Assembly: GCF_009769735.1 (NCBI RefSeq)
Contig: NZ_WSRO01000002.1
Span: 5,096,001 to 5,160,000 of the forward strand
Direction of reading: 5' to 3'
DNA from: Streptomyces sp. BA2
GTDB taxonomy: Bacteria; Actinomycetota; Actinomycetes; Streptomycetales; Streptomycetaceae
Length of the DNA: 64,000 bases
Below are positions 8,192 to 44,516 of this stretch, piece after piece; positions within the stretch are counted from its first letter, which is position 1; every line of letters begins with the position of its first letter. The notes below the pieces were generated by a model. It was not told where the DNA came from and ran no database searches. It saw only the letters and a program-made list of their open reading frames with translations. The position numbers and the translations under genes were made by a program.

Positions 8192-10156
8192 CTAGTCCTC
8201 GCTCGGCGCGGCCGGCAGCTTGGTCTGGATCAGGTCCATCACGGAGGAGTCCGTGAGCGTGGTGACGTCGCCCAGCTCGCGGTTCTCGGCGACGTCACGC
8301 AGCAGGCGGCGCATGATCTTCCCGGACCGCGTCTTCGGCAGCTCGGCCACCGGAAGGATGCGCTTCGGCTTGGCGATCGGGCCGAGGGCCGTGCCCACGT
8401 GGCCCCGCAGGTCCGCCACGAGCCCCTCGTCGTCGGCGTTCGCCGTGCCCCGCAGGATCACGAACGCGACGATGGCCTGACCGGTGGTCTCGTCCGCCGC
8501 GCCCACGACCGCCGCCTCGGCGACCGACGGGTGCGAAACGAGCGCCGACTCGACCTCGGTGGTGGAGATGTTGTGCCCGGACACGAGCATCACGTCGTCC
8601 ACGCGGCCGAGCAGCCAGATGTCGCCGTCGTCGTCCTTCTTGGCGCCGTCTCCGGCGAAGTACTTGCCTTCGAAGCGCGACCAGTACGTGTCGAGGAAAC
8701 GCTGGTCGTCGCCCCAGATGGTCCGCAGCATCGAGGGCCACGGCTCGGTCAGGACGAGGTAGCCGCCACCGCCGTCCGGCACTTCGCGCGCCTCGTCGTC
8801 GACGACGGTCGCGGCGATGCCCGGCAGTGCGCGCTGGGCGCTGCCCGGCTTGGTCTCGGTCACGCCCGGCAGCGGCGAGATCATCATGGCGCCGGTCTCG
8901 GTCTGCCACCAGGTGTCCACGATGGGGCACTTGTCGGCGCCGATGTTCTTCCGGTACCACATCCAGGCCTCGGGGTTGATCGGCTCACCGACCGACCCGA
9001 GGACCCGCAGGCTGCTGAGGTCGAACTTCGCGGGGATGTCGTCGCCCCACTTCATGAACGTACGAATCGCCGTCGGCGCCGTGTAGAGGATGGTCACGCC
9101 GTACTTCTGGACGATCTCCCAGAAGCGCCCCTGGTGCGGGGTGTCGGGCGTGCCCTCGTACATGACCTGCGTCGCGCCGTTCGCCAGCGGGCCGTACGTG
9201 ATGTACGAGTGCCCGGTGACCCAGCCGATGTCGGCCGTGCACCAGTAGACGTCGGTCTCCGGCTTGAGGTCGAAGACGGCGTGGTGGGTGTACGCGGCCT
9301 GGGTGAGATAGCCGCCGGAGGTGTGGAGGATGCCCTTCGGCTTACCCGTCGTACCCGACGTGTAGAGGATGAAGAGCGGGTTCTCGGCGTCGAAGGCCTG
9401 TGGCGTGTGCTCGGCGGACTGGCGCTCGGTGAGCTCGTGCCACCACACGTCGCGGCTCTCGGTCCACGCCACGTCCTGGCCGGTGCGGCGCACGACGAGT
9501 ACGTGCTCGACGGAGCTTCCCTCGCGCGACACGGCGTCGTCGACCGCGGGCTTCAGGGCGGCGGGCTTGCCCCTGCGGTAGCCGCCGTCGGAGGTGATGA
9601 CGACCTTGGCGTCGGCGTCCTTCACGCGCGTGGCGATGGCGTCGGCGGAGAAACCGCCGAAGACGACGGAGTGCGCGGCGCCGATGCGGGCACAGGCCAG
9701 CATCGACACGACGGCCTCGGGGATCATCGGCAGGTAGACGGCGACGCGGTCGCCCTGCTGGACGCCCAGTTCGGTCAGTGCGTTGGCGGCCCGGCTGACC
9801 TCGTCCTTGAGTTCGGCGTAGGTGATGGCCCGGCTGTCACCGGGCTCACCCTCGAAGTGGATCGCCACGCGGTCGCCGTGGCCCGCCTCGACATGACGGT
9901 CGACGCAGTTGTACGCGACGTTGAGCTTCCCGTCGGCGAACCATTTCGCGAAGGGCGGGTTCGACCAGTCGAGCGTCTCGGTCGGTTCGGTGGCCCAGGT
10001 CAGCCGGCGGGCCTGCTCGGCCCAGAAGCCGAGCCGGTCAGCCTTGGCCTGTTCGTACGCCTCCGCGGTGACGTTGGCGTTGGCCGCCAGGTCGGCCGGC
10101 GGCGCGAACCTTCGCTCTTCTTTAAGCATGTTGGCGATGGACGGACGCTCGTTCAC
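8192..10156 (-). CDS. acs: Acetyl-CoA synthetase (5' end supplied by the prophage)
   Basis: AMP-forming acetate-CoA ligase, 654 residues, activating acetate through acetyl-AMP. The adenylation P-loop is YTSGTTGKPKG, and the C-terminal PKTRSGKIMRRLL carries the lysine that is acetylated in this family. The gene is full length, but its first ten codons and everything upstream are prophage DNA. The present N terminus is MNERPSIANMLKEERRF. The host version, rebuilt by joining the stub at 44516-44481 to codon 10 here, reads VSNESLANLLKEERRF. The GTG start at 10156 follows GTTGGGAG. Expression should now depend on the phage promoter at 10224-10252. Confidence 0.95.
   Translation of the reverse strand: MNERPSIANMLKEERRFAPPADLAANANVTAEAYEQAKADRLGFWAEQARRLTWATEPTETLDWSNPPFAKWFADGKLNVAYNCVDRHVEAGHGDRVAIHFEGEPGDSRAITYAELKDEVSRAANALTELGVQQGDRVAVYLPMIPEAVVSMLACARIGAAHSVVFGGFSADAIATRVKDADAKVVITSDGGYRRGKPAALKPAVDDAVSREGSSVEHVLVVRRTGQDVAWTESRDVWWHELTERQSAEHTPQAFDAENPLFILYTSGTTGKPKGILHTSGGYLTQAAYTHHAVFDLKPETDVYWCTADIGWVTGHSYITYGPLANGATQVMYEGTPDTPHQGRFWEIVQKYGVTILYTAPTAIRTFMKWGDDIPAKFDLSSLRVLGSVGEPINPEAWMWYRKNIGADKCPIVDTWWQTETGAMMISPLPGVTETKPGSAQRALPGIAATVVDDEAREVPDGGGGYLVLTEPWPSMLRTIWGDDQRFLDTYWSRFEGKYFAGDGAKKDDDGDIWLLGRVDDVMLVSGHNISTTEVESALVSHPSVAEAAVVGAADETTGQAIVAFVILRGTANADDEGLVADLRGHVGTALGPIAKPKRILPVAELPKTRSGKIMRRLLRDVAENRELGDVTTLTDSSVMDLIQTKLPAAPSED
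10107..10153. other. attL: attL of the serine-integrase prophage
   Basis: A 21-bp arm at 10133-10153 (minus strand begins AACGAGCGTCCG and ends ATCGCC) is repeated in inverted orientation at 44461-44481. The predicted crossover dinucleotide is CT on the minus strand, plus-strand AG at 10125-10126, within acs codon 10. Sequence left of it is host acs and sequence right of it is phage. The arms flank a 14-bp spacer in the reconstructed attP, and the CT lies exactly at its centre. Confidence 0.88.
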
Positions 10157-10194
10157 TGGTGGGCTCCCAACAACATGCAGACAATTCCGGCTCG

Positions 10195-10252
10195 TGGTTT
10201 AGACCAATCTGACAACCGCTTGGATTCTTCTGCGGTTGTGAGTGCAGGTCAA
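10195..10252 (-). promoter_or_regulatory. Phage-borne acs promoter with dre-like operator
   Basis: On the minus strand, TTGACC (10252-10247) and AAGAAT (10229-10224) are separated by 17 bp and form a good sigma-70-type promoter reading into acs. Just downstream of the expected start site, TGGTCTAAACCA (plus-strand 10195-10206) is one base from the DasR-responsive palindrome TGGTCTAGACCA. The host sequence upstream of the stranded acs start also carries GGTCTAAACCA (44604-44614). DasR control is inference. Confidence 0.6.
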
Positions 10253-10404
10253 CCCCTTCCGATCCTGGCACTTGGGGCGGCGCGGGGTACAGGGGGGTAA
10301 TTACGAGCGTGGTGCGTGTTGCCGTGCCCGACCTACACACGAGCGAGTACAGCAGCGCGCCCCTGGGCGGAGCGATCCCCCAGAGGCGGGCTGTTCTTCA
10401 ACGG

Positions 10405-11538
10405 TCAGAGCTGGGCGTGCCACTTACCGCGGGCGAGGACGGTACGGCCGTCGGGACTGATGAAGACGCGGGCCCCGCGCACGGGGAGTTCCCCACTGGC
10501 GAGCCAGTCGTGACGGATGCCGTCGAGGACGTCCCACAGGCGGCGGGGGCCGCCCTGGTGGACGGTCGGTCGGTCGGTGCCCTCGGCGGTCGCACGGGCC
10601 CACGAGCCGTCGGCGTGGGCCATGATCGCGGTTCGTTGCCCGTCGTGCTCGCGGTACTCGTGCACGATGCCGGGGGCGGTGACGCTGAGCATGGAATCGA
10701 GGTCCCATGCCTGCTCGACGTTGACGACCGGATAGGGGCTGGTCGTGATGTTGTCGCCGTCCTGGTGCTGTGCGGCGGCGAGCAGTGGGGCGAGGCTGGG
10801 CGGGTAGTCGTCACCGTGGCGTACGGGCATGAATCCGGCGCGGTCCCACAGCACGCGCCCGGTGGCGCCGCCGTCGCTGTCCTTGTCCGCGGTGATGAGC
10901 AGCGAGGTACCCGCGATGGTGGTCACGAGTCGCCCACCCCGGCACAGCGCGGTGAGCCAGCTTGGCGGGATGGTGCGCACAGAGACCATGGAAACGAGAC
11001 GGTCGGCGCTCTCGGCGGCGACGGGGAGTGCGCCGGTAGCGTCCGCAGTCTCGATGCGCGGGCCGAGGGCGATGGTGTCGAGCCGTTCCCGTGCGCTCTC
11101 GACGAGATAGGGGTCGACGTCCACGCTCGTCACCTGCTCGGAGTGCAGACGGCGGGCGGCGAGGGCTGTGCCGTACCCGGTGCCGGTGCCGACGTACAGC
11201 AATTGGTCGCCGTCGTCGAGGTAGGCGTACCGCAGCATGCTGACGACAAGGCTCGGCAGGGTGGCGGAGGACGTGGGACGGCCGGCGGGGTGGTCGTCGG
11301 CCTTGGCGCGGTCGGCATGGTGCGGGCCGACGCGGGTTACGAGGGATCTGTCGCGGTAGGCGGCGGCGTACCACTGGCCCTCGTCGTACGGGGCGTGGAG
11401 GGCCCATCCGTCGTCAGTGCGCTCCCACCAGCGGGGCACGAACAGGTGGCGCGGGGTGCCTGCCACGTGGTCGCGCCATCGTGAGGTGCGGTGGGTGACG
11501 TCCTCGGCGAGGGCTTGCGCGTGTGGTCGCCAGTTCAC
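10405..11538 (-). CDS. PIMT-like O-methyltransferase (peptide-maturation type)
   Basis: A 377-residue protein starting VNWRPHAQALAEDVTH. It has an extended actinobacterial protein-L-isoaspartate methyltransferase fold. SAM-binding motif I is LLYVGTGTGYGTALAARRL, followed by VTSVDVDPYLVESA and RIETADATGALP. The C-terminal half ends in RRLWDVLDGIRHDW. Relatives accompany ATP-grasp and FxLD RiPP loci, where they methylate Asp side chains of precursor peptides. The GTG start overlaps the radical SAM stop by 4 bp (GTGA), so the two are translationally coupled. Its partner substrate is not known; no ATP-grasp gene is present. Confidence 0.82.
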   Translation of the reverse strand: MNWRPHAQALAEDVTHRTSRWRDHVAGTPRHLFVPRWWERTDDGWALHAPYDEGQWYAAAYRDRSLVTRVGPHHADRAKADDHPAGRPTSSATLPSLVVSMLRYAYLDDGDQLLYVGTGTGYGTALAARRLHSEQVTSVDVDPYLVESARERLDTIALGPRIETADATGALPVAAESADRLVSMVSVRTIPPSWLTALCRGGRLVTTIAGTSLLITADKDSDGGATGRVLWDRAGFMPVRHGDDYPPSLAPLLAAAQHQDGDNITTSPYPVVNVEQAWDLDSMLSVTAPGIVHEYREHDGQRTAIMAHADGSWARATAEGTDRPTVHQGGPRRLWDVLDGIRHDWLASGELPVRGARVFISPDGRTVLARGKWHAQL

Positions 11539-12494
11539 GCGATGGCCTCCAGGGAGAGTGGGGCGGCGGGGGTGGTGTAGGCGGGGTTGCACGCGGGGGT
11601 GTTGCTCGGGTCGCAATCGCTGGAGTCGTCGGGGGTGCAGCCGACTGCGGTTGCGGTGTGGCCCGTGACGGGTGTGCAGGGGTTCGTGTCGCCGGGGTTA
11701 CAGCCTGCGGAGTCCTCGGGGGTGCATGCGCTACGGGGCGTGGGGATGGTCGCTGTGATTTCAGACCATAGGGCGTCGTGCAGGATCTCGTGCAGGGGTC
11801 GTTCGCGGACGTTTCCGGCTTCCAGGAAACGGCTCAGGATGCACCCGGACACGTTGCCGTCGGGGTCGATGGATACGCGGTGGCGGAAGCAGTGGCCGCA
11901 CAGTTCGTCGACGGTGGGGATAGTGCCTGTAGCGGCGCGGCCTACCTTCCGGGCGCGGTCGACGTCGACGCGTTTCACGCCGAGGGCGCGTAGCTCGGCC
12001 TCGGCTTCCGCGATGCGCTGTCCGGGGTTGACCTCGACGATTCCGACGCGCAAGGGGATGTTGCGGTCGAGGGCTTCGAGGATGTTCGCGCGGGTGCGGC
12101 CGTGGCTGCCCTTGCCCTGCGTGATCCGCTCGTGCTGCTCGGCCTGGTCGGAGTAGTAAGAGGTGGCCAGGGCGACGCGGGGGTGGTCGAGGGCCCGCCA
12201 GAGGGCGGGACGGATGTGGGTGAGGTTGCTGTAGACCTCGACGAACAGGCCGAGTTTTGTCGCGCGTTCGATGTAGTGGGGCAGGTGGGGCGAGAGGGTG
12301 GGCTCGCCGCCGATCATCTGCACGGCGGGGATGCTGAGTGCGGCAATGTCGGTGATGACCTCATCCCAATTATCGCGGGTCATGAGGCCCGAACTCACCT
12401 TGGGGCCGGACATGGTGCAGCAGTGCGCGCATTGGAGATCACAGGTGCCGGTGATCTCCAACTCGACAGAGCGGATGGTGTCGAGGGCGTTCAT
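11535..12494 (-). CDS. Radical SAM protein with a Cys-x-Pro repeat tail
   Basis: A 319-residue protein. The CX3CX2C cluster site is GTCDLQCAHC near residue 15, followed by GGEPTLSPHLP. A SPASM-like region LCGHCFRHRVSIDPDG continues to GCILSRFLEAGN. The last roughly 60 residues hold six Cys, each in a C-x-P unit (CTP, CNP, CTP, CTP, CDP, CNP), spaced 8, 8, 13, 8 and 8 residues apart and surrounded by Asp, Ser and Thr. Similar Cys-Pro tails occur, from memory, in other actinobacterial radical SAM proteins. The tail could bind extra Fe-S clusters or be a substrate in cis. The methyltransferase gene follows with a GTGA overlap. Confidence 0.85.
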   Translation of the reverse strand: MNALDTIRSVELEITGTCDLQCAHCCTMSGPKVSSGLMTRDNWDEVITDIAALSIPAVQMIGGEPTLSPHLPHYIERATKLGLFVEVYSNLTHIRPALWRALDHPRVALATSYYSDQAEQHERITQGKGSHGRTRANILEALDRNIPLRVGIVEVNPGQRIAEAEAELRALGVKRVDVDRARKVGRAATGTIPTVDELCGHCFRHRVSIDPDGNVSGCILSRFLEAGNVRERPLHEILHDALWSEITATIPTPRSACTPEDSAGCNPGDTNPCTPVTGHTATAVGCTPDDSSDCDPSNTPACNPAYTTPAAPLSLEAIA

Positions 12495-12569
12495 ACGTGC
12501 GTCCTCTCGGTTGGGTGAGAGACGCGGCCCGGCTCGGGGTGAGCGCGGGCCGCTGTGGGGCCCGCGCCC

Positions 12570-13073
12570 CTACCGCAAGAAGGGCCGTTGCGGGGGAGCC
12601 TCGACCGGTCGACCGCGGTAGGGGGCGGGAGTCTGGGGCGGCGGCGTGAGGCCGCGCGCGTGGGTGAGGATGGGCCGCGCCGTGAGTGCGTAGCTCGTGC
12701 GGTCGTCTGTGACGGTGAAGGCGTAGAGGCCGCCGTCGCGCATCGCGGTGAGCGCCTGGTCGTGCTCGGCGACGTCAGTCGGCCATGCCCGCAGGGCGGT
12801 TGCCGGGTCGAGGGCCGGGCGGAGTGCGGCGACGCGCAGGGCACGCGGCGGCATCCACTGTGTGTCGAGGGGCGGATCGATCAGGTCTGCTAAGCGCGAT
12901 GCCTGGGCAGTGAGCCAGCGGACGGCGAGGCGTGGCGAGGGTGCGGCGTACCCGGCGAGCAGCCACTCGCGGGCGCTGTGCGCTGCTGGTTCGGCGAGCG
13001 TGCACTCGCACCACAACCCGTTGCGCGCCGGTGGCACCTGTACCAGCCAGGGCGCGCAGTCGGCGGCCGTCAC
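12570..13073 (-). CDS. Conserved actinobacterial protein of unknown function
   Basis: A 167-residue protein beginning VTAADCAPWLVQVPPARNG. It is hydrophilic with a Trp-rich middle (NGLWCECTLAEPAAHSAREW, QWMPPRALR) and a Pro-rich C terminus. No catalytic motif is recognised. The GTG start at 13073 overlaps the stop of the DUF7848 gene by 4 bp, which fixes the start. A 75-bp gap with a hairpin (12543-12567) separates it from the radical SAM gene. I recall similar proteins beside DUF7848 in other Streptomyces accessory regions. Confidence 0.7.
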   Translation of the reverse strand: MTAADCAPWLVQVPPARNGLWCECTLAEPAAHSAREWLLAGYAAPSPRLAVRWLTAQASRLADLIDPPLDTQWMPPRALRVAALRPALDPATALRAWPTDVAEHDQALTAMRDGGLYAFTVTDDRTSYALTARPILTHARGLTPPPQTPAPYRGRPVEAPPQRPFLR

Positions 13074-13309
13074 GGGTACGTCCTGGGCTCGGCGCGGTAG
13101 GGGCGCGTGAGGTGCTCTCGGTAGGCGAGGTGCGTCGGGTAGCTCTTCAGGTGGTTGAACACCCAGTTCAGGGGCCCGTCGACATCCTCGGCGGTGGAGC
13201 TGGCTTGCTCGCAGGCTACGCACTCCATGCAGTGCGTGACCGGTTCGGCGTCCGCGTCCTGGTTCGGTGCGACGTGGTACTCGCGGTACACGTATAAGAC
13301 GCGTGTCAT
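13070..13309 (-). CDS. DUF7848-type small Cys-containing protein
   Basis: A 79-residue protein, MTRVLYVYREYHVAPNQDA at the N terminus. It contains a CMECVACEQ motif and a C-terminal HLAYREHLTRPYRAEP. This layout matches the Streptomyces DUF7848 family as I remember it. The paired CxxC-type cysteines suggest metal binding. The ATG overlaps the stop of the upstream 55-residue gene (ATGA), and the stop overlaps the next gene's GTG. Function unknown. Confidence 0.72.
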   Translation of the reverse strand: MTRVLYVYREYHVAPNQDADAEPVTHCMECVACEQASSTAEDVDGPLNWVFNHLKSYPTHLAYREHLTRPYRAEPRTYP

Positions 13310-13473
13310 TTCGGCCCCTCGCCTCGCTGAATGCCGAGGTGCGCATTGATCTTGTCCGCTAACTCCTCAATCAACGCGTCGAGTTCGGCCAAGGGGACCA
13401 GGTCTTCGAGCGGCTGGCCGGTGCCTACCTGATCGCTCAACACGTGATCGTCGGGGTGGGGCTGGTAGTTCAT
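13306..13473 (-). CDS. 55-residue acidic protein, first gene of the cargo operon
   Basis: Sequence begins MNYQPHPDDHVLSDQ and ends GIQRGEGPK. It has an amphipathic helix (PLAELDALIEELADKINAHL) and no Cys. The ATG at 13473 has GAAGG upstream and was preferred over the TTG at 13488. As the first small gene of a radical SAM/methyltransferase operon it occupies the place of a RiPP precursor, but nothing in its sequence shows a core peptide. It could equally be a small regulator or partner protein. Confidence 0.6.
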   Translation of the reverse strand: MNYQPHPDDHVLSDQVGTGQPLEDLVPLAELDALIEELADKINAHLGIQRGEGPK

Positions 13474-13527
13474 GGGGGCGGCCTTCAATCAAATGTGGCG
13501 GCGTGGTGCATGACGGCACCTGTCCCA

Positions 13528-13552
13528 TGCACTCAGTCGCGAGATGAGTGCA
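13528..13552. promoter_or_regulatory. Inverted repeat in divergent promoter region
   Basis: TGCACTCA (13528-13535) and TGAGTGCA (13545-13552) form a perfect inverted repeat with a 9-bp spacer. It lies in the 247-bp gap between the minus-strand cargo operon and the plus-strand XRE gene. It is a plausible operator for the neighbouring XRE regulator. Confidence 0.5.
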
Positions 13553-24960: not shown

Positions 24961-26430
24961 TCACAACGGGTACGTACCGCCTGGGTCGGGTGCATCCGCG
25001 GCGCCGGTCTCCCGAAGGATCGCGGCGACCTCGACGTTTACCTCGCCGTCTTCCCACTCGGGGTGCAGCCACCGAACCTTGGTCGCGGTTGATACGGCGC
25101 CGGCGCGGGCGAGCAGGTCGAGGGTTGTCGCCGTGCTCTGCTCGCTCTCGGCGACGCCGTCGCCGAACTCGACGCGGGGGCGATCCGGTTTGATCGCGCG
25201 GGCGAAGTGCACGGCGTCGAGCTGCAACAGGACGTGCAGGATGTGCGCGAGAGGCTGACGCCAATACCCGGTTTTCTTCTTGCGGGTGACCATGGACAGG
25301 GCGTCACGGCTGTCGACTTCGGTCGCGGTGATCGGGGAGCCGTTGGCGTCGAGGCCGAATGACTGGGCGCTGTATCCGGCCGACTGGGCGGCCTGCCGAG
25401 TCAGTGCCTCGGTGCTCCGCTGGTGCTCCTCGACCCTGATCTCGAACTGGCTCAACGTGATTGCGCTGCCCTCATTGGGCGGCATCTTCAGCGAATGCCA
25501 GACCTCGCGGTCGTCGTCGAACCCTGCGCCCTGTCCGGGCCCGTAGTCCCGTAGGTACCCGTCGGGGACGATCAGCCGTGCACGGGCGAGGCGGATGTCG
25601 CGCATCCAAGACGTCCACACGTCGTCAATGGCCTCGAACACGTCCCGGATGCCCTGGAAGTCGCTACGCCCCATCGGGCTCGACCGGTGCACCCTGTTGG
25701 GCCCGATGTTCGGCACGTAGACGATCGTGAGATCGGTGATACCGGTGGTGACGGTGACGCCGTCCTCGCCGAGACTGCCCGCAAGATCGGCGGTCTCGGG
25801 GTGCTCGGCCAAGGGCACGGCGCGGCCGAGACTGTCGGGGGTGCCCTCATAGAGGCCGTGCAGGATGCGGCCCGGCTCGTGCCGCTCGACGTGCCGGAAC
25901 ATGGTCGAGGCGGTCGAGCCAGAGAGGTCACGCCACAGGGTCGCGGCCCGCAGCATCCCCCACCGGAATTCGGGGGCGACGTTGTCGGGCTGCACGACGG
26001 ACAGAATCGGCCGGTCGATCAGGTCGCGGTCCCACGTGGCGCGGAGATACACCCCGGACAGGGCCGATCCCTGCTCGGCGCCTCCGTGCAAGGTCTGCTG
26101 TATCGCGCCTTCGTCGACCAGGGTGTTAAGGCGATCCTGTGTGGCCTTGTCGTCGACGCTCACAGACGGCATGTCGCCGAACAACAGGTGAGCGCTCACG
26201 GCGGCGATGTCGGACGGCAACGGCACGTGCAGGCGGCCACGCAGTCGGGCGGGCTGGGCGCGGCGCCGATTCCACGGGCCGCGGCGGGTTGGGGCCTCGT
26301 CGTGCTCGCCGCGGATGCGGGCGAGGCGGCGCGTGTCACCGGAGTACCACGCGTCGTCGACGCGCATCTCGGCGTAGTACGGGGCCCACTGCGGGGGCGG
26401 CCACGCTGCGCCGTTCTCGGGCAGTGCCAT
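24961..26430 (-). CDS. Phage portal protein
   Basis: A 489-residue portal protein forming the DNA-entry dodecamer at the head vertex. It opens MALPENGAAWPPPQWAPYYA and carries portal-type features: VQPDNVAPEFRWG, the RDIRLARARLIVPDG helix, and the stem/wing region FEIRVEEHQRSTEALTRQAA followed by SAQSFGLDANGSPITATEVD. Length and position next to MuF fit an SPP1 gp6/SCO-phage-like portal. GAGGAGGTGAG precedes the ATG. It appears intact. Confidence 0.9.
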   Translation of the reverse strand: MALPENGAAWPPPQWAPYYAEMRVDDAWYSGDTRRLARIRGEHDEAPTRRGPWNRRRAQPARLRGRLHVPLPSDIAAVSAHLLFGDMPSVSVDDKATQDRLNTLVDEGAIQQTLHGGAEQGSALSGVYLRATWDRDLIDRPILSVVQPDNVAPEFRWGMLRAATLWRDLSGSTASTMFRHVERHEPGRILHGLYEGTPDSLGRAVPLAEHPETADLAGSLGEDGVTVTTGITDLTIVYVPNIGPNRVHRSSPMGRSDFQGIRDVFEAIDDVWTSWMRDIRLARARLIVPDGYLRDYGPGQGAGFDDDREVWHSLKMPPNEGSAITLSQFEIRVEEHQRSTEALTRQAAQSAGYSAQSFGLDANGSPITATEVDSRDALSMVTRKKKTGYWRQPLAHILHVLLQLDAVHFARAIKPDRPRVEFGDGVAESEQSTATTLDLLARAGAVSTATKVRWLHPEWEDGEVNVEVAAILRETGAADAPDPGGTYPL

Positions 26431-26710
26431 CGGGGCTCACCTCCTCTGGTGTGAAAGTAGATACGGGGATCAAGGAACTGCTGCCGCAGTCGGCACAGCA
26501 GGCGTTGATGGAACTCTTAGGGCGGTACTAACAACGGCAACAGCAGTCGCTTTAGTGTCGAAATGAATCTCCCCTATCGCTCTCATGCAATATGCGCCAA
26601 ATAACCCCGGAGTCCTGAAGCAGTAGTGAACAAATAACGGCAGCCTCTATTCTTGAATTTTGCGGTAATCTAAGGTTGGTCTTTCTGGATCAACTCACAG
26701 GAGCACCAGA

Positions 26711-26911
26711 ATGGAAAACGATCGCCCGCGTCGCAAGATTCGTCTCGATTTTGAGATCGACACGGACTCCATCCCGGGTCTAGACCGCCGTCCCACCAGC
26801 TACATTCCTCACACGGACATCCCTCTCTACCGCCCTGGCCCCGGCCCTATCCCGGGTCTAGACCACCGCCCCACCAGCTACATTCCTCACACAGATATCC
26901 CTATGGAGTAG
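26711..26911 (+). CDS. Duplicated-motif 66-residue protein (moron)
   Basis: The protein contains two 18-residue copies of IPGLD(R/H)RPTSYIPHTDIP, encoded at 26771-26824 and 26849-26902 and nearly identical at DNA level. A charged leader (MENDRPRRKIRLDFEIDTDS) precedes them and a YRPGPGP spacer joins them. CAGGAG lies 7 bp before the ATG. The upstream 180 bp is AT-rich compared with its surroundings, suggesting independent acquisition. It is antisense between the terminase and portal genes. No family recognised; a repeat-bearing peptide substrate or a binding protein is possible. Confidence 0.65.
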   Translation: MENDRPRRKIRLDFEIDTDSIPGLDRRPTSYIPHTDIPLYRPGPGPIPGLDHRPTSYIPHTDIPME

Positions 26912-26927
26912 CTGCGGGCGAAAAGAC

Positions 26928-26968
26928 TTCAGGGTCCCGCTCTCGCTCAGGTGAGATGGGGCCCTGAA
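26928..26968. terminator. Terminator between moron and large terminase
   Basis: TTCAGGGTCCC (26928-26938) pairs with GGGGCCCTGAA (26958-26968) with one wobble. On the minus strand it is followed by GTCTTTT, so it can end the terminase transcript as well as the moron transcript. Confidence 0.75.
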
Positions 26969-27047
26969 ACCTTGTGGGGCCCTCAAATGGCTTGCGTGCT
27001 CGACACGACGCTGATCAGGTGCGCCTTGGCGCATTCCCCTGGAGAGG

Positions 27048-28298
27048 TCACAGCGCGAAGTCGGTGGTAGCTGAGAGCAGGTGACGCCACTCGTGCGCGG
27101 TGGAGTGGACGACGTAGCGCAGGGCGTCGGCGCTGTGGTCGTCGACCTTGATCGGGGCGTCGTCGCCGCGCTCGGTGGCTTTGGGGTCCCAGGAGTAACC
27201 GGGGAGTTCGGCGAGCAGGCCCTCGCACGAGTCGTGCACGAGCAGGCGGTCGGCGGCGAGCAGGCTCGACACGCTGCGGATTCCGTCGGTGACGCCGTTG
27301 GTGGCGCGGGCGAGGCCGGGGTGCCCGTCCTGCCACATCTGCGTAGAGAACGACGCGGCGCTCGGGTCGATGAACGTCCACTCGGGCGTGATGCCGAGGG
27401 CGTCGAGCCACGCGCGGACGGCGCGGCTGTATTGCGCGTCGGTCATGCTGCGGTGCACCGTGCGGGAGTCGTGGCGCCACTCGGCGCACACGTACAGGCG
27501 GCCGTCGGTGCCTTCGCCGAGCAGGACCGCGGCGAACGGGTTGGTGGTGCCGTAGTCCACGCCGCACCAGTGGCGACGCATGTCGGGCAGCTCGTCGACG
27601 ACGTGGCGGGCCTCGTCCCACATGTCGTAGATGGCGCCCTCGGCGACCACCCACGCGCCGTCGATCATGCGCCGTCGCCACAGGCCGACGTACTCGGCGG
27701 CGAGGTCGGCGACGTAGTCGGGTGACAGTGAGGGGTTGTCGGCGAGCTTGAAATGCCAGGAATGAAGGTTGAGTTCGCCCGCGCGGTCGAGATACCCGGT
27801 CTTGAGCCAGTGCCGCGGACTGTCCGGGTTGGTCGTCGCGTACAGGCGCGCGCCGGGCACGGACAGACGGGCAAGAAGCTGGACCCAAAACCCCTCGGGC
27901 AAGAGGGTTGCCTCGTCGACGTACGCCAACTGCGCGGTGAGGCCGCGTAGGCGGCCCTCGGCGCGGGCGTCGGCGGCGCCGATCAGGTGGACGGTGCGGC
28001 CGAGGATCGTCGCCGTGGTCGCCCCGCGGGTGTGCACGACGTGACGGGCGAGGGGACCGAACAGTGCGCGGTCCTGTAGGGGCTCCAAGACGTTGCGCTC
28101 GATCGTTTGCAGCGATCGGCCGCAGATGATGATGAGCCCGGACGGGCCCGCCGTGGCGACGGCGATCACGAACGCCAGCAACGATGCGATGGTCTTGCCG
28201 GATCGAACCGAGCCGTGCCAGAGGTTGATACGGGCGGTCGCCTGGCCAATCGAGCGGAGTTGCTTGCGGGACAGGGGCAACCGGTCGAGGTCGAGCAC
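27048..28298 (-). CDS. terL: Terminase large subunit
   Basis: A 416-residue ATPase/nuclease that packages phage DNA. The Walker A-like motif is WHGSVRSGKTIASL near residue 30 and Walker B is LAYVDEATLLPEGF. The nuclease domain has WCGVDYGTTNPFAAVLLG and the later EWTFIDPSAASF and KVDDHSADALRYVV acidic residues. This is the PBSX/T4-like terminase_6 layout. The GTG start at 28298 lies 4 bp after the small-subunit stop. It appears complete. Confidence 0.93.
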   Translation of the reverse strand: MLDLDRLPLSRKQLRSIGQATARINLWHGSVRSGKTIASLLAFVIAVATAGPSGLIIICGRSLQTIERNVLEPLQDRALFGPLARHVVHTRGATTATILGRTVHLIGAADARAEGRLRGLTAQLAYVDEATLLPEGFWVQLLARLSVPGARLYATTNPDSPRHWLKTGYLDRAGELNLHSWHFKLADNPSLSPDYVADLAAEYVGLWRRRMIDGAWVVAEGAIYDMWDEARHVVDELPDMRRHWCGVDYGTTNPFAAVLLGEGTDGRLYVCAEWRHDSRTVHRSMTDAQYSRAVRAWLDALGITPEWTFIDPSAASFSTQMWQDGHPGLARATNGVTDGIRSVSSLLAADRLLVHDSCEGLLAELPGYSWDPKATERGDDAPIKVDDHSADALRYVVHSTAHEWRHLLSATTDFAL

Positions 28299-38070: not shown

Positions 38071-38077
38071 GGCCCGT

Positions 38078-38617: not shown

Positions 38618-39237
38618 TGCTCGCCCCCTGCCTGCGCGACGGGTGCGGGGGCGAGGGCGGGAAGAACGTGTGCGGCGAGGGCGCCCTCGCGCCACGCCTG
38701 GGCGACCAACTCGCGCCCGTCTACCGGGCTCTTGGTGCTGCGGCGGGTGTAGGTCATGCGGTGGGTTGCGGCACGGTGTGGCTTCAACGCGATGCCGGGC
38801 ACCTCGTGTGCCTCGCCGGTGGTCGAGTCGGCGTAGTGGGCTGTCCCGGCGGCGGTCGCCTCGGCCAGCACCTTTGCCGTAAAGGCAGGCTGTACGCGGG
38901 TGATGACCTGGGCGGGGATCACCTCGACGACGTGCTCGCTCGGGTAGGTGTCGCGGACCCACACGCGAAACGCCTCGTCGTCGATGACCTGGGCGGCGAT
39001 CTCGCCACCGATCCGGCTGACGCTGCCCACCTTCAGGCCGCCGGGCAACGTCGCATCGACCTTGGTCGTGCCGGTGGCCTTGTACTGCTGGTTGAGCAGG
39101 TGCTGTACGTCGGTGCTCGCCTCGGCGTGCGCGGTCTTGATCTCGTCGAGCAGAGCGCCGAGGACGGCTTTGCGGGTGACGGCGTCGCGGACGGCGGCCG
39201 GGTCCGGCGCGGTCGGCTTCGGGGCCTGCTCGGTCAC
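38614..39237 (-). CDS. Conserved phage protein next to the annealase
   Basis: A 207-residue protein beginning VTEQAPKPTAPDPAAVRDAV. It contains HLLNQQYKATGTTKVDATLP and AYRVWVRD-like FRVWVRDTYPSEHVVEVIP. It is coupled by GTGA overlap to the RecT-like gene. No motif identifies its activity; a recombination accessory role is suggested only by position. Confidence 0.6.
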   Translation of the reverse strand: MTEQAPKPTAPDPAAVRDAVTRKAVLGALLDEIKTAHAEASTDVQHLLNQQYKATGTTKVDATLPGGLKVGSVSRIGGEIAAQVIDDEAFRVWVRDTYPSEHVVEVIPAQVITRVQPAFTAKVLAEATAAGTAHYADSTTGEAHEVPGIALKPHRAATHRMTYTRRSTKSPVDGRELVAQAWREGALAAHVLPALAPAPVAQAGGEQ

Positions 39238-40433
39238 TGGGCACCCCCAGCGGCGGCGGCCTCGATCATCTGCCGGAACGCGTCGAGCTGGGCGGCGGTC
39301 GCCTGCTCGATGGGCAGGCCATAGACGCGCTCGAAATCGGCGTCGAGCGTGGGCAGGTTGGCACGGGACGCGGCGAGCCTGAGCGCGTTCTCGGCCTCCA
39401 TAGCGGCCTTCTCGTCCGCGGGAACGTCATGTTCAGCGGCGCGCGCGTCAGCGGCAGAGTGCGGCGCGGGGCCGGTCGGCTCGGGCTGTCGGGCGCCCGG
39501 CTTGGTGCTGCCGATGTGCGCGACGCGGGCGAGCTGCTCGGCATTCTCCCCGCTCTCCTGCAACGCCTCGTACAGCTTGCGCACGTCCTCGACGGTCGCG
39601 GCCTCGTGCGCTTGGCGGATGACGTCGAGGGCGGCGAGGTAGTGCTCGGGCGCCCCTGACGTGCGAGCGGCATCTATCAGCGCGGCGAGCTGGTCGGGGT
39701 CGGGGGTGGTGACGGCCTCAGCGAGGTAGTCGCGGCGCTCGGCCTGCGGCGGGGTGTTCGGCGTCGACTGCACGACGGTCACGCCCTCCTGCATGGGCGG
39801 AGTGTCGGCGCGCTCGACGACGGCTGGGTTTCCTTCCTGGTCGACGACTTCGCCCAGCTCCTCGGGCGTGTAGATGGCGCCGTGAAGGACTTCCGGGCAC
39901 GCGATGCGCACGCTTTCGGCGATGCTGCGTGCCCGCAGCATGGCGCGCGGGAACCGTTCCCACGGCTGCGGCTGGTTGTTCTTGTCGCGTGAGTAAGGGC
40001 GTTCGTCGCGGAGCGTGCACAGACCCGCGGTCACGGCGTCATCGAGCGTCCACTCGATAACGGTCTCGTCGTCGGGGTCGTCGTGCCGCTGAATGCGGAC
40101 CTCGCACCGTGTGCGCTCGGACTTGATCCGGACACGGTGACCGGCGGCGCGGGCGCGGCCGAGCATGAGGTCGGCGGACTGGCACGGCTTGCCCTTGATC
40201 ACGTGAATGGTCGTGATGGTGGTCACGACGTCGAGGCCAAGGGCGCGGCCGTACTCCATCGCCCACAGGACCGATGCGGGCTGCTTGCGGTAGGCGTCCG
40301 GCAGTAGCGGGGTCTGCGCGAGGGACTCGCAGAACTGCCACGCCTCGTAAGGCGACATGTGGGAGAGGGACAGGGCGCCCCCGCGAGCCGGGGCGACGGC
40401 GGTCGGAGCGTGGGCGGTGGCGACGGTGGTCAT
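39234..40433 (-). CDS. RecT-like single-strand annealing protein
   Basis: A 399-residue protein. The conserved part is WQFCESLAQTPLLPDAYRKQ, VLWAMEYGRALGLDVVTTIT, IHVIKGKPCQSADLMLGRAR, and WERFPRAMLRARSIAESVRI. This is the RecT/annealase-type phage recombination protein frequently encoded before SSB in Streptomyces phages. A helical C-terminal region rich in Ala/Glu follows. The start ATG at 40433 is 2 bp from the preceding stop. It probably anneals phage single strands together with the SSB. Confidence 0.72.
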   Translation of the reverse strand: MTTVATAHAPTAVAPARGGALSLSHMSPYEAWQFCESLAQTPLLPDAYRKQPASVLWAMEYGRALGLDVVTTITTIHVIKGKPCQSADLMLGRARAAGHRVRIKSERTRCEVRIQRHDDPDDETVIEWTLDDAVTAGLCTLRDERPYSRDKNNQPQPWERFPRAMLRARSIAESVRIACPEVLHGAIYTPEELGEVVDQEGNPAVVERADTPPMQEGVTVVQSTPNTPPQAERRDYLAEAVTTPDPDQLAALIDAARTSGAPEHYLAALDVIRQAHEAATVEDVRKLYEALQESGENAEQLARVAHIGSTKPGARQPEPTGPAPHSAADARAAEHDVPADEKAAMEAENALRLAASRANLPTLDADFERVYGLPIEQATAAQLDAFRQMIEAAAAGGAQ

Positions 40434-40435
40434 GG

Positions 40436-40813
40436 TCACGGGCGGGCGTTCCTGTTCTGTGCGGTGCGGTGGCGAATGTGGGCGGCGGCCTTGGTGATGC
40501 GGGTGGCGAGGGTGATCGCGTCGTCGGGGTCGAGCAGGGGGTCGAGGGCGACGGCGGCCGGGCAGTCGTCGAGCAGGGCCTCGCGGGTGGCGTCGGCCTG
40601 GGCGGCGCGCATGGCGCGGCCGTGCTCGGTGGCGTCGTCGCTGCACATCGCGAAGTCGAGGGCGACGACGCTCGCGGCGTGGGCGGCGAGCAGTCGGCCG
40701 ACGGCCTTGGGGTCCTGGGCGTAGGCGAGGGCGAGTTCGTCGAGCAGCGGGTCGACCTGCTCGGCGAGCGGGAGGCGCACGGCGATGCCGTCGGCGGAGA
40801 GCTGGGGGCGCAT
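40436..40813 (-). CDS. Hypothetical early protein
   Basis: A 125-residue, Ala/Asp-rich helical protein beginning MRPQLSADGIAVRLPLAEQV. The ATG overlaps the previous stop (ATGA). No family recognised. Confidence 0.6.
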   Translation of the reverse strand: MRPQLSADGIAVRLPLAEQVDPLLDELALAYAQDPKAVGRLLAAHAASVVALDFAMCSDDATEHGRAMRAAQADATREALLDDCPAAVALDPLLDPDDAITLATRITKAAAHIRHRTAQNRNARP

Positions 40814-41214
40814 CACGGGCGCGACTCCTCGGCGGTGTCGAGGCCGAGAACGGCGGGTGCAGTCGGCTCGTCCGCGGTGAAACGGCCGGTGCGAGCGTCG
40901 TAGGTGAGGGGGCGCGAGCGGTCGACGCCGGGGAACATGCGGGCGAGCAGGCCGAGGGTGGCGCGGTGCGCCTCGCGGTCGGCGGCCACCGGGCGCCCCT
41001 GGGCATCGGCGAGCATGACGCGGGTGGAGCGCCGTTCGGTCCCGTCCTGGACGGTCCATACGGGGACGGTCCGCACGCGGACGGTTGTGGGGGCAATCGC
41101 GTTCAGCTGTCGGGCAATGACTGCGACGCGGGCGAGATGACGGCGGCCCACGCGCACGCCCCGTATGGCGAGGGCGGCACGTGGGATGCGGCGAGTAGTC
41201 TCTGTTCGGTTCAC
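40813..41214 (-). CDS. Hypothetical early protein
   Basis: A 133-residue protein starting VNRTETTRRIPRAALAIRGV with a basic N terminus and a middle beta-rich segment (TTVRVRTVPVWTVQDGTERR). GGAG lies about 10 bp before the GTG. A GGGGCCGC.../GCGGCCCC hairpin (41240-41272) precedes it. Function unknown. Confidence 0.55.
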   Translation of the reverse strand: MNRTETTRRIPRAALAIRGVRVGRRHLARVAVIARQLNAIAPTTVRVRTVPVWTVQDGTERRSTRVMLADAQGRPVAADREAHRATLGLLARMFPGVDRSRPLTYDARTGRFTADEPTAPAVLGLDTAEESRP

Positions 41215-41281
41215 GATCGGGTCTCCAAGCGGTCGTGACGGGGCCGCTCCGGGCGCAATCCGGGGCGGCCCCTTGGCGTTG

Positions 41282-41488
41282 TCAGGCGGCGGCGCGGTGG
41301 GGAAGGGTGCGTGCGGCTCGGTCGGCGCGTATGGCCTGTTCGAGTTCGTCCACGGACGGACCACCGGGGGCGTAGCAGGCGCGGGCGGCGGCCTGTACGG
41401 GCATGCGGTCCATGGCGTCGGAACCGGCCCGCCAGGCGCGAGCGGCGGCGCGCATGGCCTGTTTGCGAACCAGGCTCGGCGCACTCAT
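41282..41488 (-). CDS. 68-residue hypothetical protein
   Basis: MSAPSLVRKQAMRAAARAWR begins a basic helical protein ending in RTLPHRAAA. Its ATG overlaps the stop of the Cro-like gene (ATGA), making it the second gene of the early transcript. Function unknown. Confidence 0.6.
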   Translation of the reverse strand: MSAPSLVRKQAMRAAARAWRAGSDAMDRMPVQAAARACYAPGGPSVDELEQAIRADRAARTLPHRAAA

Positions 41489-41691
41489 GCGGGCGCCTGC
41501 GTCATCAGTTGGCGGGCCGATACGCCGTAGTGGTCTTCAACTGCTGCGGCTACTGCGGCTGATGGGGCCGTGTGGCCGTGCCACAAACGCCACGCAGTGT
41601 TACGTGCAACCTTCAACCGACGTGCGGTGTCTGACGGGTTGCGGTCGCCCTGGCCGACAGCAGCGGCGACAAACGAAGTGCGGTCGTACAT
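41485..41691 (-). CDS. Cro-like small helix-turn-helix protein
   Basis: A 68-residue protein. The helix-turn-helix is DTARRLKVARNTAWRLWHGH, followed by SAAVAAAVEDHYGVSARQLM. GAAGGA lies 7 bp before the ATG at 41691. As the first gene of the early operon, divergent from the repressor gene and with operators immediately upstream, it occupies the Cro or excision-control position. Confidence 0.75.
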   Translation of the reverse strand: MYDRTSFVAAAVGQGDRNPSDTARRLKVARNTAWRLWHGHTAPSAAVAAAVEDHYGVSARQLMTQAPA

Positions 41692-41701
41692 GCATCGTCC
41701 T

Positions 41702-41736
41702 TCCACGGGTGGACCGTTCCGTCCACGAGTGGAACG
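41702..41736. promoter_or_regulatory. Tandem operators upstream of the early operon
   Basis: TCCACGGGTGGA (41702-41713) and TCCACGAGTGGA (41722-41733) are two similar inverted repeats 20 bp apart, centre to centre. A wider repeat CGTTCC-N10-GGAACG (41715-41736... arms at 41715-41720 and 41731-41736) encloses the second. The second shares GTCCACGAGTGGA with the operator at 35689-35712. The gap 41737-41940 also holds CGAAC-GAGA-GTTCG and CCATAGC-C-GCTATGG repeats, but no gene. Confidence 0.7.
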
Positions 41737-41946
41737 TTAGCACGATGATCGAACACATGAGCCACACGAGGCGCCGTGAATATGCAGGAGTCCCATGCTT
41801 GACGCACGGTGTAACATTGCGGACACTCGGTAACTCGAACGAGAGTTCGAACAGGTTCCGCAGGTCAGGGGGGAATGTGAGAGTCCGCGAGCGAGAATCG
41901 GCCGCGCTTATCGGCCGCCATAGCCGCTATGGTCCACGCGCGGTAT

Positions 41947-41962
41947 GTTCCATCCATGGAAC
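41947..41962. promoter_or_regulatory. Operator over the repressor start codon
   Basis: GTTCCAT and ATGGAAC form a perfect inverted repeat around CC. The ATG at 41956 that starts the repressor gene is part of the right arm, which suggests translational-level or autorepression control. Confidence 0.6.
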
Positions 41963-42393
41963 GAACGAACCCAGGCGACCCCAAGCACTTCGCCCGCTGG
42001 CTCAGAAACCAACTAGATCGCCGCGGGTACGACCTACGACCTAGGGGCGGCGGACAGACCAAGTTCGCCCAAGACTCAGGCATCGGTCGCGCCACGATCA
42101 GCCGCATCCTGGCTGGCAACGGCGCCACCGACACCGGCGTACTCGCCACGCTCGCCGCGACCCTGGAAGTACCCCTCAGCGAGGTACTGGTCATCGCCGG
42201 AATCCTCGACGCGGACGAACTTCACGCCGTCCGCAACCCCGACCGCAGCGCCGGCCACCTCACACCCGAGGAGGCCGCCGACGAACTCGGTATCGAAGAC
42301 CCCCAATCAAGGGCCCTCTTCATCTCTATGACACAGACCCTGCAACGCACCCCGGACCCCCAAAACGGAGGTGACCGCGCAGCAGAGCGCTAA
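41956..42393 (+). CDS. Prophage repressor (XRE family)
   Basis: A 145-residue protein from MERTNPGDPKHFARWLRNQL. The helix-turn-helix is TKFAQDSGIGRATISRILAG. The C terminus (DPQSRALFISMTQTLQRTP) is a short dimerisation-like tail. It is divergent from the Cro-like gene and precedes the membrane protein and integrase genes. Its start codon lies in an inverted repeat. Its role as the lysogeny repressor is inferred from position. Confidence 0.8.
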   Translation: MERTNPGDPKHFARWLRNQLDRRGYDLRPRGGGQTKFAQDSGIGRATISRILAGNGATDTGVLATLAATLEVPLSEVLVIAGILDADELHAVRNPDRSAGHLTPEEAADELGIEDPQSRALFISMTQTLQRTPDPQNGGDRAAER

Positions 42394-42408
42394 CCGCACG
42401 GAGGCACA

Positions 42409-42777
42409 GTGAACAGCCGGTACATGCCCGCCCTCGCCCTAATCCTGCTCGGAACAGGGCTCGCCGCGGGCGTCCTCGGCCTCGTCGGCGACAACATCGA
42501 CGTCTTCCGGTGCGGCATCTTCGTCACCGTCTGCTCGTTGCCTCTGCTCATCCTTCGCACCCTGCGCGAATCCCAACACGTCAGCGCCCACCAACTCGCC
42601 GAGGCCGACAAAGCCGGATACCGCCGCGCCCTGGACCACGTCGCCCGCGGCCTGCTCGACAACCACACCGCGCCCACCCCCCAAGGGGGCGACCGCGCCA
42701 CCGTCGAGCAGGTAGCGGGCAACGTGTTCCACATACGCCCGCTCCCCTACAAGGGAGAGGAACGGAAGGCACTGTGA
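42409..42777 (+). CDS. Two-helix membrane protein upstream of integrase
   Basis: A 122-residue protein with two hydrophobic helices (MPALALILLGTGLAAGVLGL and IFVTVCSLPLLIL) and a soluble C terminus (AEADKAGYRRALDHVARGLL). GGAGG precedes the GTG. Its stop overlaps the integrase GTG by 4 bp. Small membrane proteins before serine integrases recur in Streptomyces elements; the role is unknown. Confidence 0.75.
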   Translation: MNSRYMPALALILLGTGLAAGVLGLVGDNIDVFRCGIFVTVCSLPLLILRTLRESQHVSAHQLAEADKAGYRRALDHVARGLLDNHTAPTPQGGDRATVEQVAGNVFHIRPLPYKGEERKAL

Positions 42778-44447
42778 CGAGAGCGCAAACGTTAGAAACC
42801 CCCCAAGCCCCACCAGGCATACGCGAGCCATGGGTCGGTTACATCCGAGTCAGCACCTACTACGAGGACAAGATCAGCCCTGACATTCAGCGCGCGGCCA
42901 TCAACGCATGGGCCGACCGCACCAACCGCCGCATCGTCAAGTGGATCGAAGACCTCGACATATCCGGCCGCACGTTCAAGCGCAAGATCATGAACGGCAT
43001 CAAGACCGTTGAGGAGAGGGAAGCGCGCGGCATCGCCGTCTGGCGATACAGCCGCTTCGGGCGCTCCCGCCACGGCAACGCCGTGAACCTCGCACGGCTC
43101 GAACAGGTCGGCGGACGACTGGAGTCGGCGACAGAATCCACCGACACCAGCACCGCATTCGGGCGCCTGCAAATGGGGATGGCGTTCAAGTTCGCCGAGT
43201 TCGAGAGCGACCGTATCGGCGAAGTCTGGGCCGAGACCCGCGAACACCGCCGGGCACACGGCCTACCGGCCACCGGCGGGCAGCGATGGGGCTACAAGTG
43301 GCACCGCCGCGTCCTCGACGAGAAAGGCGTACTGCACCCCGAGTGGTACGAACCGGCCGAAGACCTCGGCCTGATCGCACTCGACCTCTACGAACGCGCC
43401 GCCGACGGCCAGCCCATGAACTCACTGACCAAGTGGCTAGGACGCAACGGCTACACCGGCACCCGCGGAAAGCCATGGAACCAAACCGGACTCACCCGCT
43501 ACATGGACTCCGGATTCCCCGCGGGATGGCTGCGCTACCACCCCGACGATTGCGACTGCCCACCCGCAGACCCCGAGGGCAACGTGCACCGCGCCGCCCT
43601 GTGCAAGAAGAAGGTTTACATGCCGGGGTCGCACGAACTGATCGTCAAGGAAGACGTATGGGAGGAGTACCAGCGCAGACGCAAGCTCGCCAGCAACAAG
43701 CCAGCCACCAACCGGGCACCGGCCTACCCCACATCAGGGCTGGTCGTCTGCGGTCGCTGCGGCGGCGCGACAGTGGCCGGGGGAGGCTCCACGTACGGCG
43801 CGGGCAAGGTGCTCATCCGGAAGAACGGATACGTCTTCCGATGCAGCGCGCACAAGGACAACGCCACCTGTGACGGCGTCTACATCCTCCGCGCCGTCGT
43901 AGAAGACAAAGTGCTCGAACGCCTCGCAGAGTGGGCCGACGAGATCGAGGCCGAGGCCGCCAAGCTCGCGGACCAGGAGGCAGCCAACCCCAAGAAAACC
44001 AAGGAGGACCCGACCACACCAGCCGCACGACTTGAGGCGGCGCGCAAGCGACTGCACGACCGGCTCGCCGAGATCGAGACCGAACTCGACAGGCAAACGA
44101 GCCTGGTCTCACGGGGCATCATCCCCGAGGACAGTTACACCCGTGAGCGCGACCGGCTCACGACGGAACAGAACTCCGTCACCGAGGAGCTAGCCGCGCT
44201 CGACGCGAGCACGGATCAGACCGAGGTCACCAAGGCCGACTATCTGCCGGTGATTCGCGGCCTGGTCGACCGCTGGAAGATCACGCCGGTAGACACTCGG
44301 CGGGCCCTCCTGCGCACGCTGCTGCGTGGAGTATGGGCGTACCCGAAGATGAAGGACGCGAACGGCGACGTCATCGTGCCGTACGCCGTCCCCGTGGCCG
44401 TGTGGGAAGAACCACCGGCCACGATCGGGCGCCGCGCTGCGGCATAA
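42774..44447 (+). CDS. int: Large serine integrase
   Basis: A 557-residue phiC31-type serine recombinase. The catalytic domain (about residues 18-165) has the nucleophile Ser27 in VGYIRVSTYYED and the Arg-rich VWRYSRFGRSRHG. The recombinase domain follows, then a zinc ribbon (VVCGRCGGAT ... RCSAHKDNATC) and a coiled-coil motif (ARKRLHDRLAEIETELDRQT). The GTG overlaps the preceding stop. It ends 13 bp from the attR arm, the usual arrangement. It catalyses attP x attB integration; excision needs a directionality factor I could not identify. Confidence 0.96.
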   Translation: MTRAQTLETPQAPPGIREPWVGYIRVSTYYEDKISPDIQRAAINAWADRTNRRIVKWIEDLDISGRTFKRKIMNGIKTVEEREARGIAVWRYSRFGRSRHGNAVNLARLEQVGGRLESATESTDTSTAFGRLQMGMAFKFAEFESDRIGEVWAETREHRRAHGLPATGGQRWGYKWHRRVLDEKGVLHPEWYEPAEDLGLIALDLYERAADGQPMNSLTKWLGRNGYTGTRGKPWNQTGLTRYMDSGFPAGWLRYHPDDCDCPPADPEGNVHRAALCKKKVYMPGSHELIVKEDVWEEYQRRRKLASNKPATNRAPAYPTSGLVVCGRCGGATVAGGGSTYGAGKVLIRKNGYVFRCSAHKDNATCDGVYILRAVVEDKVLERLAEWADEIEAEAAKLADQEAANPKKTKEDPTTPAARLEAARKRLHDRLAEIETELDRQTSLVSRGIIPEDSYTRERDRLTTEQNSVTEELAALDASTDQTEVTKADYLPVIRGLVDRWKITPVDTRRALLRTLLRGVWAYPKMKDANGDVIVPYAVPVAVWEEPPATIGRRAAA

Positions 44448-44460
44448 CCGCAGGTCACGC

Positions 44461-44507
44461 AACGAGCGTCCGTCCATCGCCTACTTGAGAAGGTTGGCCA
44501 GGCTTTC
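44461..44507. other. attR: attR of the prophage
   Basis: The 21-bp arm at 44461-44481 (begins AACGAGCGTCCG, ends ATCGCC) is the inverted counterpart of the arm at attL. The predicted crossover AG (plus) is at 44488-44489. Rightward sequence is host acs, reading back to its original GTG. Confidence 0.88.
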
Positions 44508-44516
44508 GTTGCTCAC
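44481..44516 (-). pseudogene. acs: Stranded 5' stub of host acs
   Basis: GTG at 44516, preceded by GGGAG, encodes VSNESLANLLK and then hits TAG at 44483-44481 inside the phage half-site. These are the original first codons of acs; codons 11 onward are 34 kb away at 10123. The original promoter region lies at about 44520-44620. Confidence 0.92.

Follow-up and report, generated by a model that had tools for sequence, protein, structure and literature searches.

The acs locus and its prophage

The window analyzed here is a stretch of 64,000 nucleotides from Streptomyces sp. BA2 (contig NZ_WSRO01000002.1, positions 5,096,001 to 5,160,000 of the forward strand), in which a prophage of ~34 kb interrupts codon 10 of acs, the gene for acetyl-CoA synthetase. 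The prophage lies between the junctions 10126/10125 and 44489/44488 (Table 1), and the acs gene beside it has received a replacement 5' end from the left arm of the phage attachment site (attP). The N-terminus of this acs reads VNERPSIANMLKEERRF, in which the phage-encoded residues VNERPSIANML precede the host codons, and the native start is left on the other side of the prophage as a stub, VSNESLANLLK, that halts at a TAG in phage DNA. When the host flanks were joined at their common CT (44489/44488 to 10126/10125), an unbroken frame resulted, VSNESLANLLKEERRFAPPADLAANANVT, and the reciprocal attP join gave VNERPSIANMLK followed by a stop codon. A preliminary description of this DNA had claimed that phage-side codons open acs, that the stub stops in phage DNA and that the stub and acs form an open frame when joined at the CT, and all three claims were borne out.

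The identical run at the crossover comprises only the CT, i.e., 2 bp. The arms of attP form an inverted repeat in which 25 of 31 positions are paired, versus 14 of 31 in the bacterial site (attB). Since the adjacent gene encodes a large serine integrase, with Resolvase, Recombinase and zinc-ribbon domains, both the 2-bp identity and the inverted-repeat attP fit expectation, and because the arms form this repeat the codons NERPSIA also serve as a half-site for the integrase. Matches to the integrase were obtained in 73 phage records, all of them less than 60% identical to it, and in 36 of the 73 one place covers at least 80% of the integrase. Its nearest named relatives are SV1-like Streptomyces phages, the SV1 integrase being 43% identical.

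In-frame start codons of acs are found at codons 1 and 10, both on the phage side, and the next is codon 97. The ACAS_N domain occupies residues 31-84, such that codon 97 lies past it and inside the enzyme, and therefore Acs would be truncated if the phage codons were absent. There is one full acs in this genome, and the notion of a second copy that renders the insertion harmless was ruled out, as the two next-best matches share 30% and 36% identity.

Reading toward acs, the module supplied by the phage consists of a predicted promoter (TTGACC-N17-AAGAAT), the box TGGTCTAAACCA, a probable ribosome-binding site, a GTG start (10156) and the codons up to the crossover. The predicted promoter has 9 of 12 consensus bases and is the one site found, against a mean of 0.1 in 50 shuffles; no terminator-like site was found in 10100-10700.

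Table 1. Coordinates of the acs gene, the prophage junctions and associated features in the window
Feature	Position	Strand	Remarks
acs (acetyl-CoA synthetase)	8192..10156	-	Codons 1-10 (VNERPSIANM) and CT of codon 11 from phage; remainder host
CT crossover, acs-side junction	10125..10126	.	
CT crossover, stub-side junction	44488..44489	.	
Native acs stub, VSNESLANLLK then stop	44481..44516	-	Separated from acs by the prophage; ends at TAG in phage DNA
Phage attP left arm, coding (GTG start and NERPSIANM)	10125..10156	-	Contains inverted-repeat integrase half-site
attP right arm	44461..44480	.	Mirrors left arm
Likely ribosome-binding region, TTGGGAG	10161..10172	-	Ahead of GTG start; read from sequence
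dre-like box (DasR element), TGGTCTAAACCA	10195..10206	-	Downstream of phage promoter
Predicted phage-borne promoter, TTGACC-N17-AAGAAT	10224..10252	-	Sequence only
Native box, AGGTCTAAACCA	44604..44615	-	Upstream of native TTGTCA hexamer
Large serine integrase (int)	42510..44447	+	Open reading frame call; family match starts at residue 105
Sulfate permease-carbonic anhydrase fusion, host neighbour	44608..46971	-	Marker of the empty locus; 3' end overlaps native box by coordinate
Phage portal and large terminase genes	24961..28298	-	Mark the insert as a tailed phage

Distribution of the module and of native acs starts

The module was already present in unintegrated phage contigs. In three IMG/VR contigs (L046, L049 and L051) attP has int on one side and late phage genes on the other, and hence their attP are unintegrated; the attP of L047 is nearly identical to that of L046. 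The mini open reading frames (ORFs) at these free attP read MSNERPSIANMLK in L046 and L047 and MSEERSSLSNLLKEETVTRSS in L049, each followed by a stop, and in L051 a first mini-ORF, MSNERPGIANMLRRES, also closed by a stop, is succeeded by MSEERSSLSNLLR. The L051 attP (within 2560-2900) has two crossover cores 50 bp apart, and its two Acs-like mini-ORFs overlap by stop and start. The earlier proposal that the attP arm provides a start, a ribosome-binding site, codons and a promoter is therefore upheld, the promoter as a prediction.

The same site is occupied by prophages with 63-66% identical integrases in G183, G152 and Streptomyces shenzhenensis, where the acs N-termini read (M)VDNERSSLSNLLK, MTTNESPSLSNLLK and MSSNESPSLSNLLK, respectively. 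Among 392 Streptomyces genomes, 23 yielded matches to the integrase at a threshold of E 1e-60, three of which (the window's own included) were >60% identical. The core is TT and not CT in S. shenzhenensis and G073 (L082, L166), and the crossover dinucleotide may have shifted with the host leucine codon. The sequences from the far ends of two IMG/VR prophages (L083 and L084) are trimmed, and no box was found in them.

Both TTGACC and TGGTCTA(A/C/T)ACCA were present in all 14 phage-type modules examined, as was an in-frame start reaching the crossover. The box begins 38-47 bases after TTGACC in 13 of the 14 and 28 bases after it in L051; for G073, which has a second TTGACC farther up, the spacing was measured from the nearer one. 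Among the native and tandem loci with a box (described below), TTGACC was found no more than 60 bases ahead of it in 3 of 110, at 19-25 bases. Eight N-termini from phages and prophages were compared over their last eight codons, with both copies from L051 and without L047, and second codon positions contributed only 7 of the 166 pairwise differences (column shuffling, P 0.005; P 0.03 with 14 sequences including relics), a scarcity that fits selection for an Acs-like peptide.

Acs starts were surveyed at 121 loci from 118 Streptomyces genomes and classified as native, phage type (B) or tandem type (C), leaving out of the count two loci that were 61-62% identical (G117:8309821 and G101:4454727) and a partial match in G003. 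Native-type starts, with their own box, AGGTCTA(A/C)ACCA, 15-18 bp upstream of a putative TTGYCA promoter hexamer, accounted for 99 of the 121 loci, in agreement with the preliminary description, and the remainder were 7 of type B, 11 of type C and 4 without a box, three of which are second gene copies. No empty-site acs already reading MNERPSIANMLK, the case that had been named beforehand as contrary to a phage origin, was present among the 121 loci. Twenty loci from 15 other genera of the family were compared as well; at all 20 the box precedes a hexamer resembling TTGTCA, with one box base-changed, and ESLANLL was found in 17 of the 20. Native layouts at all 20 outgroup loci and 99 of the 121 genus loci suggest that this layout is the ancestral one, from which the phage type departs as a derived state. 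In other families of the class, the box was found within 330 bp upstream of acs in none of 26 loci (0/26). Near the start, LSNL(L/M) was present in 18 of 26 acs loci outside the family, and the phage peptide is therefore Acs-like beyond the frame alone. A tree built from 52 acs coding sequences (L057 left out) requires eight changes for type B and nine for type C, and a shuffle test confined to the B and C rows, set against each other, showed no clustering beyond chance.

Phage-type starts were also identified at loci without a prophage. In G106, G010, G023 and G088 the module has the host neighbour directly upstream, with 281-517 bp from the neighbour stop to the core; searches of these loci with the exact pattern found no native box or stub, and there was no integrase match at E 1e-60. 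The prophage-free acs of G010 has the N-terminus VSERSSIANMLK. In G092 the neighbour gene is missing in the 60 kb read, and a gene 71% identical to SV1 gp26 is located just upstream of the module, which is taken to be of phage origin because that gene adjoins it. The contig of G073 is too short for assignment as prophage-free. On sequence grounds, these prophage-free N-termini of phage type are best read as the remains of earlier prophages.

A pattern search of the 392 Streptomyces genomes gave 24 matches, comprising 23 tandem loci and one native locus with long spacing; L235 was dropped from the tandem class. In the tandem layout, a native promoter and stub are followed by a cassette at the crossover core, a second core and acs. 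Each cassette has GGAGGAGA-like ribosome-binding letters, a start that overlaps or adjoins the stub stop and a phage-type N-terminus up to the second core. The core-to-core length of the cassette is 50 bp at 22 loci and 59 bp at the remaining one; 20 loci have CT as their first core and three have TT. The cassette in the L051 attP also has 50 bp between its cores, and its starts are 50 apart, a distance that is 47 in 22 of 23 chromosomal cassettes. It is plausible that such cassettes arose when a phage integrated at one core and was excised at the other, or through deletion of a prophage and subsequent spread. We speculate, tentatively and as a possibility short of a probability, that phages have exchanged DNA at the acs start again and again: a phage with a double-core attP like that of L051 would use one core to integrate and the other to excise, and site-specific recombination would thereby deposit and pick up a 50-bp coding piece, with ribosome-binding letters like those of the P' arm, that becomes domesticated behind the native acs promoter as a translationally coupled second start. 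If so, phages would have rewritten a core metabolic gene at the acs start, leaving transmissible footprints.

Terminase, portal, minor head, endolysin and tail-spike genes identify the insert in the window as a tailed phage. At its left end (10405-12494), a PCMT-type methyltransferase gene stands beside a radical SAM/SPASM gene, a pair that resembles peptide-modifying cargo. Between the portal and terminase genes, a small ORF (26711-26911) has a repeated IPGLD(R/H)RPTSYIPHTDIP unit, and GGGTCTAGACC near 26776 and 26854 was dropped as a candidate for extra operators given that both occurrences are within this repetitive ORF. In the lysogen, the native acs promoter is directed into the 3' end of int (44604 to 42510), and host control of acs could yield an int-antisense RNA.

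Regulation of the module and competing explanations

We consider it very probable that the attP of this SV1-like phage serves as a spare acs 5' end: a regulated module becomes fused to acs, Acs is kept in the lysogen, and the module may outlast the prophage. As judged from sequence, the acs side of attP carries a predicted promoter (TTGACC-N17 and a -10 element), a putative operator resembling dre, a probable ribosome-binding site, a start and ~10-15 Acs-like codons in frame to the crossover dinucleotide. The serine integrase would exchange attB, at codon 10 of acs, with attP, which would displace the host promoter and stub to the opposite end of the prophage and fuse the phage module to the remaining acs. 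Transcription would then presumably begin at the phage promoter, the fused enzyme would be expected to be active and the lysogen should go on making Acs. The operator suggests a tie to host acs control, probably through DasR or another GntR-type repressor, although the box follows the promoter in the phage module and precedes it at native acs. Decay of the prophage could later leave the module as the promoter and N-terminus of acs. If this is true, integrating phages are not limited to tRNA ends or gene breakage, and an attP can carry a regulated replacement start, including a host-type operator, for a core metabolic enzyme. The first acs codons would furthermore constitute a readable record of lost prophages, and the locus a direct system for asking why one Acs N-terminus replaces another.

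With respect to the operator, GGTCTAAACC is shared by the phage arm (10196-10205) and the DNA upstream of the native start (44605-44614), and GGTCTAHACC has two matches in the 64-kb window versus 0.11 expected. The exact 12-mer TGGTYTARACCA has 2 sites in the 10-Mb genome, one being the box of the phage module; at the other (L038), no recognisable chitin or N-acetylglucosamine gene was seen among the frames read by eye, and the site gives no support. The consensus of the DasR element (dre) is given as A(G/C)TGGTCTAGACCA(G/C)T in the available part of PMC4398421, and the window box fits 11 of its 12 central bases. In Saccharopolyspora erythraea, acsA is a direct target of repression by DasR (You 2018, as cited in the accessible text of PMC11323494 and PMC11356632), and according to the latter text its repression of acs is not yet demonstrated for S. 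coelicolor.

Several points weigh against a spare, host-regulated acs start. Changes at third codon positions alone were not significant in the eight N-termini (P 0.09), the needs of the integrase may explain part of the DNA likeness, and the promoter in the free phages is directed at the 3' end of int, where another role is possible. Some outgroup loci resemble the phage type: a T-first box occurs in 2 of the 20 (L214, L219), LSNLL in 2 of the 20 (L211, L214) and TTGACC 41 bp ahead of the box in 2 of the 20 (L212, L230), the last pair from a single genus that may hint at a host source of the phage promoter. A single central base sets the box apart from the dre consensus. When one mismatch is tolerated, the 12-mer has 28 genome sites (the two exact sites and the native acs box included) as against 17 in the reversed control, so that the loose 12-mer is not rare. 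SCO3563 is presumably acs. Neither SCO3563 nor acetyl-CoA appears in the available main text of the DasR chromatin immunoprecipitation paper (PMC4398421). In addition, all 99 native boxes are A-first and 15-18 bp upstream of TTGYCA, whereas the 14 phage boxes are all T-first and downstream of TTGACC. Most of the variation among the boxes, native and phage alike, falls on the same base. The different first base and the opposite promoter sides imply that the phage did not simply copy the modern native region, and the sign or effect of regulation may differ between the two boxes.

Whose regulator acts at the phage box bears on the claim in the preliminary description that the lysogen keeps Acs under phage-borne control. 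One could argue that the box serves as operator for a GntR-UTRA regulator encoded by the phage, which would put acs in the lysogen under phage instead of host control, given that such genes lie within ~2 kb of attP in L034/L046 (5730-6509 in L034), L047 (12550-13503) and L051 (3895-4638). However, the L034 protein has no match in the window at E 1e-15, its two genome matches lying elsewhere, and no GntR domain was detected in four minus-strand window ORFs between 10405 and 14391 (the scan covered selected ORFs), in four ORFs of L049 or in three of L189, the G152 prophage; the box is there nonetheless, and is of the type found at native acs. Phage control is unlikely, and host control via DasR is favoured over a phage GntR protein as the probable mode of regulation. 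Of the earlier claim, the predicted promoter is indeed phage-borne, but the box is dre-like as at native acs and host control may persist.

The orientation of the promoter, in the window as well as in L046, L049 and L051, would also suit a role for the phage itself, in which integrase is lowered by antisense RNA or collision at the int 3' end and the rescue of acs is a by-product, the more so as the native acs promoter faces int likewise after integration. Antisense transcription, however, needs no ribosome-binding site, start codon or Acs-like codons, and the module persists at acs in the four prophage-free genomes that have no integrase match; we regard this explanation as unlikely. Nor does it appear that likeness between attP and attB is alone responsible, the arm reading like acs by chance and the start and promoter being incidental. 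The arms are a strong inverted repeat with the codons inside the half-site, but the start, frame, TTGACC and box recur in every module despite differing flanks, free phages included, the second-position constraint fits coding, and the module has been kept at prophage-free loci, all of which renders chance very improbable. Finally, phages could have acquired an old host variant of the 5' end, with the prophage-free loci or the outgroup genus as its source. Four genomes do have the phage type next to an intact neighbour gene, and the 41-bp spacing in the two loci of that genus is within the range of 38-47 in phage modules; against this, the layout is native at all 20 outgroup loci (those two included) and at most genus loci, the phage type is scattered over the acs tree, and an SV1-like phage gene has been kept beside the G092 module. 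A host origin of this kind is accordingly quite improbable.

Comparison with known integrating elements

Bxb1, A118 and SP-beta have serine integrases with a crossover inside a protein-coding gene, and either truncate the gene or rely on excision; they are not known to bring a promoter or start codon. SXT/R391 is a conjugative element with a tyrosine integrase, and the elements that integrate in dusA have a tyrosine integrase as well. In the acs prophage, the crossover is in the 5' coding region and the frame is restored by codons of the element, as expected of a 5'-end rebuilder, and the start codon and putative promoter are present before integration in the free attP of L046, L049 and L051. 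Rebuilding of a 5' end is known for the integrative and conjugative element SXT/R391 at prfC (Hochhut and Waldor 1999, cited in PMC8409611), for which the accessible part of the citing paper mentions no host-matching operator. The dusA islands and prophages, such as IMEVchUSA3, like the acs phage provide a new promoter and 5' coding sequence. In the available parts of PMC8409611 and PMC4482086, the N-terminus supplied by a dusA element is described as sharing 61% identity with its native counterpart across 35 residues, with a measured expression below native, and neither a host-type operator nor remnant cassettes are mentioned.

The Picardvirus SV1 resembles the acs phage in that its attB is in a CoA ligase gene, but that gene is SCO4383, a putative 4-coumarate-CoA ligase, and not acs (accessible text of PMC4068962). 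By eye, no promoter-start module was recognised at the SV1 attP, in the 340 bp after SV1 int, and in the same text the SV1 authors report no SCO4383 fragments in SV1. They also describe as a puzzle that SV1 vectors harm S. venezuelae and the SV1 prophage does not (PMC4068962, available part), and the acs case, if borne out, suggests where to look for an answer, though no such module was recognised there. Among the literature matches listed, which cover the field without most subscription journals, there was nothing on acs as a phage integration site. The preliminary description had called 5'-end rebuilding by a serine-integrase phage less familiar; the principle itself is known, from SXT at prfC and from dusA (PMC8409611, in the part available), and what stands of that remark is the serine integrase. 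New here, therefore, are the serine integrase, a dre-like operator within the module and the recurrent domesticated remains of such modules at acs.

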